This document shows positions 3,604 to 60,969 of a DNA stretch of 64,000 nucleotides, piece after piece. This DNA is from Extensimonas soli. GTDB lineage: Bacteria > Pseudomonadota > Gammaproteobacteria > Burkholderiales > Burkholderiaceae_C. The number at the start of each line of letters is the position of its first letter. Within the stretch, counting starts at the first letter, position 1. Both the position numbers and the translations under genes were made by a program. Location of the stretch: contig NZ_JARGEL010000013.1 in NCBI RefSeq assembly GCF_029211265.1, positions 62,001 to 126,000 on the forward strand, in the 5' to 3' direction. The notes beneath the pieces are model-generated. The model was not told where the DNA came from. It ran no database searches and saw only the letters and a program-made list of their open reading frames with translations.

Positions 3604-3769
3604 CTAGTGTAGTGTTCGACGCTATATGCGACATAAAACCGCGTCTTTTCGGCCCGGGCCGCGTTGCAAATCCTCGCGATACCACCCGGTATCGCTGCGG
3701 TTTGCGCCTTGCCCAGACCAAAAATCCATCGGCTTTATTTGTCGCATCAAGCATCAAACACTACACTAG
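3604..3769. mobile_element. MITE-like element, family A, copy 1
   Basis: A ~165-bp non-coding element starting CTAGTGTAGTGTT and ending AACACTACACTAG. The terminal inverted repeat continues imperfectly for ~30 bp (GCT...TGCGACA on both arms). An inner perfect hairpin gcgatacc-accc-ggtatcgc is present. A second copy lies at 33855-34019, nearly identical base for base. The distance between the TA of each CTAG end is 162 bp. It sits directly after the gshA stop and may act as that gene's 3' end. No transposase is encoded, so it would have to be mobilised in trans. Confidence 0.8.
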
Positions 3770-46415: not shown

Positions 46416-46584
46416 CTAGCAGCCTGTCGGACTTTGGGCGTCGATAGCGAGAATGGGCCCCAGCGAGGCCAGTTTTTGCCGGATTCGCCGCCCCATAGTG
46501 GTGCTATGGGGCAAGAAGACGGTAAAAAATGGGCCGCTGCGGCGCATTCGCAGCCGACGATTCCAAAGTCCGACAGGCTGCTAG
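46416..46584. mobile_element. MITE-like element, family B, copy 1
   Basis: 169 bp from CTAG to CTAG, with perfect 22-bp terminal inverted repeats beginning CTAGCAGCCTGTCGGACTTT. The TA-to-TA distance is 165. Inside is a hairpin gccccatag-tggtg-ctatggggc. The + strand frame through it is open and joins the Crp/Fnr frame. The second copy is at 60333-60501. Confidence 0.85.
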
Positions 46585-59833: not shown

Positions 59834-59890
59834 GAAAGGGGGGGTGAAAGGGGGGGTGAAAGGGGGGTGAAAGGGGGGTGAAAGGGGGGT
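59834..59890. repeat. G-tract tandem repeat (GAAAGGGGGGT)x5
   Basis: Two 12-bp units (seven G) then three 11-bp units (six G), one after the other, all in the gap between the tauE stop and the GH15 start. Five G-runs of six to seven can form a G-quadruplex on the + strand. The - strand is the transcribed sense for both neighbours. Confidence 0.9.
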
Positions 59891-59919
59891 GAAAGAGTGC
59901 TTTGGCGCTCAAAGGCTGA

Positions 59920-60846
59920 TCAGCCGCGCCAGAAAAACAGCCCCGCCATCACGAGCCCCGTGGCCACGATGCCGGCGCGCAGCCAGGGCGCGGGAATGCG
60001 CCGCGCCAGGCGCGCGCCGCCGTAGCCGCCCGCCGTGGCCGCGAGCATCATGGCCAGTGCCTGCGGCCAGGCGACGAGGCCGCCAGCCGCGTAGATCAGC
60101 ACGGCAATCGCCGTGAGCAGGGCCGAGACCAGGTTCTTGAGCCCGTTGGCCGCATGCAGCCGCGTCTGCCCGAGCAGGCCGAACAGCGCGAGCAGCAAAA
60201 TCCCCAGCCCGCCGTTGAAGTAGCCGCCATACGCCGCCACGGCGAGCACGCCGGCCTGCGCGCGCAGGCGTGCCGCGGGCGTTACGGCGTGCGCCGTCGC
60301 GTCGGGCCGCGCAGCCGGGCGCAGACGCGGGCCTAGGAGCCAGTCGGACTTTGGAGCCGTCGGCTGCGAATGTGCCGCAGCGGCCCATTTTTTACCGTCT
60401 TCTTGCCCCATAGTCCCGCTATGGGGCGGCGAATCCGGCAAAAACTGGCCTCGCTGGGGCGCATTCTCGCTATCGACGCCCAAAGTCCGACAGGCTCCTA
60501 GCGCGAACAGCGCCGTCGCGGCGAGCAGCAGCCAGGGCACGACGCGGCGAAAGGTGGCGTCGGGCGTGGCCAGCAGCAAGAGCGCGCCCAGCGCCCCGCC
60601 CACGAGCGACAGCCCCATGACGGCGCGCAGCGTGAGCCCCGGCGGCGGCGCCAGGTCTTCACGGAAACCCCAGGCGCTCGCGATGTAGCCGGGAAACAGC
60701 GCCACGGTGCCGGTGGCGTTGGCCATCACGGGCGGCACGCCGCTGAAGACCAGCGCCGGCAGCGTCAAAAAGCTGCCGCCACCGGCCACCGCGTTGAGGG
60801 CGCCGGCGGTGCAGGCCGCGGCGAGCAGGAGCAGGATTTCGAGCAT
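59920..60846 (-). CDS. TauE/SafE-family sulfite/anion transporter, with in-frame MITE
   Basis: 308 residues as read. Start LLLLAAACTAGALNAVAGGGS with the family motif NAVAGGGSFLTLPAL; second-half repeat YGGYFNGGLGILLLALFGL and NGLKNLVSALL. About seven to eight membrane helices. After ~residue 116 come 55 codons (GACRTLGVDSEN ... PKSDWLL) that are MITE family B, not transporter; without them the protein would be ~253 residues, the normal size. The frame is not broken. Start at 60846; ATG 60858 is an alternative. Confidence 0.85.
   Translation of the reverse strand: MLEILLLLAAACTAGALNAVAGGGSFLTLPALVFSGVPPVMANATGTVALFPGYIASAWGFREDLAPPPGLTLRAVMGLSLVGGALGALLLLATPDATFRRVVPWLLLAATALFALGACRTLGVDSENAPQRGQFLPDSPPHSGTMGQEDGKKWAAAAHSQPTAPKSDWLLGPRLRPAARPDATAHAVTPAARLRAQAGVLAVAAYGGYFNGGLGILLLALFGLLGQTRLHAANGLKNLVSALLTAIAVLIYAAGGLVAWPQALAMMLAATAGGYGGARLARRIPAPWLRAGIVATGLVMAGLFFWRG
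60333..60501. mobile_element. MITE-like element, family B, copy 2 (inside tauE)
   Basis: CTAG at 60333-60336 and 60498-60501; TA-to-TA distance 165, the same as copy 1. One mismatch in the 22-bp ends (cctgtcgg/ccagtcgg). Relative to the gene it runs in the same direction as copy 1 runs relative to the Crp/Fnr gene. 165 bases is 55 codons, and no stop occurs in the used frame. Confidence 0.9.
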
Positions 60847-60969
60847 GGGTTCTGGCATGGGGAGCGGGTTTGCTTGAAAAAGGTGGCGCTGCGCATGGAG
60901 GAGCGAGCAAGTTGCCGTCTGGGCGCTGTATGGGTGCCGTCTGGGCGCCGCTTCGCAGACAATCGGGCC

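Follow-up and report, generated by a model that had tools for sequence, protein, structure and literature searches.

An in-frame CTAG-bounded MITE in a tauE/safE-type gene of Extensimonas and the orientation rule of its intragenic copies

The closest described systems to the element considered here are the Rickettsia palindromic elements (RPE). These repeats are 100-150 bp long, contain an open frame and occur in frame in many unrelated conserved genes, and one RPE host, guanylate kinase, has been reported to be translated and active (passages of PMC10969869, PMC2229807 and PMC3767692). Their target duplication is given as unknown in a table of PMC2229807. The same source describes the small MITEs ERIC, the 107-bp NEMIS/Correia element and YPAL as having open frames and forming in-frame gene fusions, with TA at the termini of Correia and ERIC (PMC2229807). 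The QMITE1 and QMITE2 families of Coxiella have about 50 copies each, some of which overlap genes or lie in frame within them (a passage of PMC5896051). A 2024 review sees nothing exceptional in in-frame fusions made by MITEs, picks out Rickettsia because they are so frequent there, and finds it "conceivable" that proteins have evolved in a similar way in other prokaryotes (PMC10969869). No report of the Extensimonas MITE was present among the literature matches listed, and the sequence string of its terminal inverted repeat (TIR) was unmatched.

The window referred to below is the whole stretch of 64,000 nucleotides of Extensimonas soli DNA that was analysed. The original prediction, made from its sequence alone, was that a 165-bp MITE with 22-bp TIRs, CTAG ends, a length divisible by three and an open frame adds 55 in-frame codons to a transporter gene near residue 116. 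All of these features are seen in the tauE copy (Table 1). Its arms are 22 nt each, 95% complementary and separated by 125 nt, CTAG bounds the element on both sides, and the tauE frame, read on the minus strand, is stop-free across it and gains 55 residues; the position had been placed close to the exact start, which is given in the table. The Pfam TauE profile matches the product at 2.8e-35, with profile positions 1-234 extending over residues 9-303 and flanking the insert on both sides. In a structure model of the protein (mean pLDDT 83.9) the host helices mostly score 88-97; the insert, scored block by block at about 47-65, is predicted to lie in the loop that joins helices 98-123 and 192-211. 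Units resembling GGGGGGTGAAA form a short tandem repeat at 59836-59895 of the window, between tauE and the neighbouring gene.

Table 1. Coordinates of the element copies, their terminal repeats and the host gene in the window
Feature	Position	Strand	Remarks
tauE/safE-type transporter gene	59920..60852	-	310 aa; element from codon 118
MITE copy in tauE	60333..60501	-	169 bp, CTAG ends included; net gain 165 bp
TIR left arm (plus-strand numbering)	60333..60354	.	right end as tauE reads the element
TIR right arm (plus-strand numbering)	60480..60501	.	left end as tauE reads the element
Second MITE copy in window	46416..46584	+	94% identical; not called intragenic

A scan of genomes with TauE minus the insert returned 61 TauE loci, of which the closest were those of Extensimonas vulgaris DSM 100911 (98% identical) and E. 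perlucida HX2-24 (96%). In both species tauE is uninterrupted and the gap in the DNA alignment is exactly 165 bp, which bears out the 55 added codons, and when the protein was aligned with uninterrupted homologues, as had been proposed, the 55-residue gap was found in all 26 relatives. The segment is thus not a loop common to the homologues, being absent from 26 of 26 proteins, and none of the 61 loci carries the element.

The element in tauE is a MITE: it is short, bounded by TIRs, has no transposase and is dispersed in many copies, about 90-100 per genome in each of three Extensimonas genomes. At least 40 places were scored in the window genome, the window's own among them, with 94-100% identity among the matches listed, and a TIR pattern allowing up to three mismatches gave 216 matches there as against five for a reversed control pattern, so the element is not a chance resemblance. 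An interior pattern (up to two mismatches) was found at 89 places in the window genome and at 102 and 107 places in the two congeners, the places in the latter being taken from the 100 of 102 and 100 of 107 matches listed. The census sample comprised 266 copies (82 from the window genome, 94 and 90 from the congeners) and omits copies with fewer than 140 matched bases or less than 60 bp of flank and some places near contig ends. The length was 169 bp in 254 of the 266. Stops in the frame used had been put forward as the finding that would tell against a built-in open frame; the frame was open in 247 of the 254 169-bp copies (74/77, 90/92 and 83/85 by genome) and stopped in seven. CTAG was present at both ends of 169 of the 266 copies, whilst the end 4-mers were equal in 181 and unequal in 85, so that the target duplication may be either of 4 bp or of TA, some of the unequal ends being compatible with the latter. 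The base beside CTAG was G or C, and complementary across the ends, in 251 of 266 copies from the three genomes, and this base defines two subfamilies of ends.

A number of variants and associations were encountered in the course of the census. Forms of 79 bp (L267 1978-2056, L270 2206-2284 and L273 791-869) are without 90 bp, or 30 codons, of the interior and still constitute a 3n insertion, and a 190-bp form present in two different genera (L101 1946-2135 and L389 1501-1690) has 21 extra bases, seven codons encoding a similar peptide, with the used frame open in both. Some odd TIR matches, considered as a possible parent element, proved to be short or partial copies. Three intergenic pairs from the window genome and E. 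perlucida (L012/L148, L013/L163 and L085/L145) have identical elements in identical or nearly identical 60-bp flanks, which suggests that DNA was exchanged recently. Another family of CTAG-bounded elements has the ends CTAGTGTAGTGTT...AACACTACACTAG and is present at 3604-3769 of the window and also at about 300-700 of L266, beside the end of an IS630-type (PF13358) transposase; the MITE was nested at the ends of this other family in 15 of 82, 7 of 94 and 0 of 90 copies in the three genomes.

The ends of the MITE match those of autonomous insertion sequences of the IS1182 family in the same genomes. These are 1,534 bp long in the window genome (two copies) and E. vulgaris (one copy) and 1,576 bp in E. 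perlucida, and the two transposases scanned scored 383.8 and 369.8 bits against NF033551 (cut-off 270). With CTAG counted, 17-19 of 19 bp of the IS ends match those of the tauE MITE, depending on the ends compared, and for the right arm (60480-60501) the outer 19 bp match at 18-19 positions. At two loci a MITE and an IS1182-family element lie back to back with one CTAG in common. The two kinds of element probably also share a palindromic 4-bp target, the IS being autonomous and having sequence in common with the MITE only at its ends. The MITE is most likely mobilised by the IS1182-family transposase, to judge from these matching ends. A mover of IS630/Tc1 type, guessed at from the TA at the ends, was made unnecessary by this match; PF13358 (DDE_3) was found at four places in two of the three genomes, none of which shows the MITE ends as its own, although three of them are near contig ends.

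For one member of the IS1182 family, ISPsy36, a GGCC target is reported (a passage of PMC8027508). At 26 empty sites of the congeners CTAG was not found once, and 13 of the 26 read CT[CGT]G (CTCG, CTGG or CTTG). This fits poorly with strict targeting of CTAG unless CTA codons are short-lived, and either short-lived CTA codons or a looser target could explain empty sites without CTAG. A 16-kb alignment with E. vulgaris contains five CTAGs, of which two are the MITE's own ends; two of the remaining three are kept, too few for a rate of turnover to be derived.

The original prediction had also proposed a search for further copies and a count of those inside genes, by frame. Copies were called intragenic when, with the flanks joined, both 180-bp sides were coding in one frame according to a codon-usage model for which the window had served as training set. 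By this strict definition 41 of the 266 copies are intragenic (18/82 in the window genome, 8/94 and 15/90 in the congeners), and all are in a stop-free orientation. In 39 the element is in forward orientation and the CTAG is read CTA/G (the stroke marking the codon boundary); the other two are in reverse orientation with the CTAG read NCT/AGN. Neither of the stop-containing combinations of phase and orientation was represented among the 41 of this strict class, which could miss old disrupted genes. The net insertion is 3n in all 41, compared with 216 of the 225 remaining copies. At the other coding CTAG sites of the DNA retrieved, too, the CTA/G reading was commoner (53) than NCT/AGN (9), and orientation has therefore to be compared within each phase. 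When shared sites are collapsed the open orientation is found at 36 of 36 distinct sites, for which the probability at one-half per site is 2^-36, or 1.5e-11. Looser calling (score 5, one stop allowed) admitted three contrary copies in phase -1 and one in +2, against a noise level gauged by three copies in impossible phases at the same setting; with 120-bp flanks there was one contrary copy in -1 and one in an impossible phase, and with 90-bp flanks one contrary copy in -1. In other genera six of 34 judged copies, some genomes having contributed several, were intragenic, all in the same frame.

It is very probable that the MITE inserts at CTAG with a net gain of 55 codons and that copies in the stopping orientation are purged whilst those in the open orientation persist. 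A non-autonomous element moved by the IS1182-family transposase would, on inserting at CTAG, add a net 165 bp, that is 55 codons, to a gene. Coding CTAG is mostly read as CTA/G in the genus, and in that phase one orientation would be open throughout and yield a 55-residue hydrophilic, predicted-disordered segment, while the opposite orientation would reach a stop after some 26 codons; where CTAG falls in the less common NCT/AGN phase, it would be the reverse orientation that is open. Insertions in a stopping orientation would truncate their genes and be lost, and those in the open orientation would leave full-length proteins and persist, single-copy cell-wall genes included. We infer that purging is the cause of the orientation rule and that the inserts are translated and tolerated. 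The rule might instead derive from the transposition mechanism, if this were tied to transcription or replication, and 39 of the 41 copies are indeed the same way round relative to the gene; the two NCT/AGN copies, however, are reversed, as avoidance of stops predicts, and even though two cases are weak evidence an origin in mechanism is considered improbable.

The host genes are mostly familiar ones. A protein family was matched by 34 of the 35 host frames scanned, five frames at shared sites lying outside the scan, and the hosts include GlmS, Mpl, PdxA, MurD, threonine synthase, UvrA, Sua5, glucokinase and MltB, together with a cystathionine beta-lyase-like enzyme that falls under the curated cut-offs. 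PdxA of the window genome has two insertions, and Sua5 is interrupted at different sites in different species. In most bacteria neither glmS nor murD is dispensable. A search for each of these two families gave one gene above the cut-off in each of the three genomes. The interrupted glmS of the window genome, a single frame of 712 aa, scored 765.1 bits compared with 771.3 and 763.8 for its uninterrupted counterparts, and the interrupted murD of E. perlucida 349.2 bits compared with 362.4 and 368.5. A more conventional reading is that these are cases of insertional damage, in which the hosts are pseudogenes or the continuity of the frame is accidental, and a 102-bp MITE does inactivate genes in Pseudomonas syringae pv. 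actinidiae (a passage of PMC6053426). Against this, single-copy glmS and murD with the insert score like their uninterrupted orthologues, all but one of the host frames scanned have a protein-family match and the open orientation is found without exception among the 41, so that damage is the least probable of the explanations considered.

For 15 of the 18 intragenic sites of the window genome, one congener or both have an orthologue free of the insertion; of the other three, the first is occupied in both congeners, the second is occupied in a single congener, the other having yielded no orthologue, and the third is in a gene that was not found in either. Some intragenic sites are common to the three species in conflicting patterns (L080, L143, L205, L101, L204, L004 and L041). 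Shared sites were at first read as simply inherited, but the resident elements at the Mpl and Sua5 sites are unlike in subfamily or length, which suggests exchange, conversion or a renewed insertion at one and the same site.

An important consideration is whether the peptide itself is under selection. It may be argued that it is a selected module, a functional linker domain kept by purifying selection and spread by its usefulness, as the same peptide occurs in 39 intragenic copies, and remains recognisable in many diverged copies of other genera, and as some match to the element is present in 28 of 141 sampled genera (46 of 399 genomes of the bacterial family), some of the matches being end fragments only. 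No match to the MITE was found in plasmid and phage collections, nor was the exact TIR pattern matched in a viral collection. The peptide is hydrophilic (GRAVY -0.78, 12 charged residues) and the segment is predicted to be disordered, which makes the term linker domain of the original prediction too strong; the reverse open frame would encode a less hydrophilic peptide (GRAVY 0.01) containing three Cys and three Trp residues. No purifying selection was detected on the peptide, either within the genus from private changes or across genera from dN/dS. Private changes in the intragenic copies were 27 nonsynonymous to 6 synonymous, and in the others 115 to 38, where about 2.48:1 is expected without selection; none of 33 private changes in intragenic copies made a stop as against 8 of 161 in the others, a difference that is not significant (p 0.36). 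Across genera the median dN/dS in the used frame was 1.16-1.18 and variability had no three-base periodicity. Conservation is at the level of the DNA, the transcript of which is predicted to form a strong hairpin (-111.5 kcal/mol, z -11.2, none of 200 shuffles as good), and a selected peptide is improbable.

Most of the 36 diverged copies that were read retain the 169-bp layout, and 26 were used for dN/dS and openness. The used register was open in 25 of these 26, a figure flattered by the exclusion of copies not of 169 bp and of L037, whose used frame has three stops, L051, with an unaligned end, and L382, with an internal shift. Preserved openness was discarded as a signal of selection, as an unused register, serving as control, was likewise open in 25 of 26. 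With the interior shuffled and the TIRs retained, the used frame was open in a proportion of 0.32 and one of the two orientations in 0.68. Openness is thus a property of the element that makes the insert tolerable, and in these comparisons it gives no sign of being preserved as such. The suggestion of an open frame as a dedicated feature is, accordingly, not supported by the shuffles, the unused register and dN/dS of about 1.2; what survives of the built-in linker domain, only partly supported given this dN/dS and an open frame not rare by chance, is a tolerable open insert, with no sign that the peptide is useful. It is doubtful, though rather less so than the alternatives discussed here, that the 3n net length, the usual CTA/G phase and the one open orientation are maintained together and make coding sequence a safe landing place; were this true, the element would be a protein-compatible transposon carrying out a natural linker-insertion scan of the proteome in many genera of the bacterial family.

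It is also conceivable that RNA processing takes the segment out of the transcript, or that ribosomes bypass it at the hairpin, so that it would be missing from the mature protein, and the great predicted stability of that hairpin speaks for this. Skipping, however, needs no stop-free 3n insert, yet all 41 copies are open and 3n, and this too is very unlikely. Retention of translated open-orientation inserts is the reading adopted here, and on it the three genomes offer a natural set of 36 positions at which a protein seems to tolerate 55 extra residues. As close genomes with empty sites and a matching IS are available, it can be tested directly whether such inserts are translated and tolerated and whether they transpose.

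As a kind, the element is an RPE-like protein-coding palindrome, an in-frame palindromic repeat in many unrelated open genes, and that kind is known; what is surprising is the scale, the cleanness of the rule and the presence of empty sites. Compared by description, RPE resemble the Extensimonas MITE in palindromy, in an open frame and in their in-frame presence in unrelated genes, but their hosts are obligate intracellular alphaproteobacteria. In-frame palindromic insertion as frequent as this is best known from Rickettsia, and we know of no mover for RPE there. In the Extensimonas MITE, unlike RPE, orientation follows the reading phase of a CTAG target, and IS1182-family elements with matching ends occur in the same genomes. 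ERIC, NEMIS/Correia and YPAL, again compared by description, are similar in having open frames fused to genes, but they occur in other hosts and a phase-orientation rule does not form part of their description in the passage concerned (PMC2229807). The QMITE1 and QMITE2 matches, according to the passage that describes them, are mainly in hypothetical genes and in 3' regions (PMC5896051). The Extensimonas family thus represents in-frame palindromic insertion on a scale comparable to that in Rickettsia, in a separate clade.
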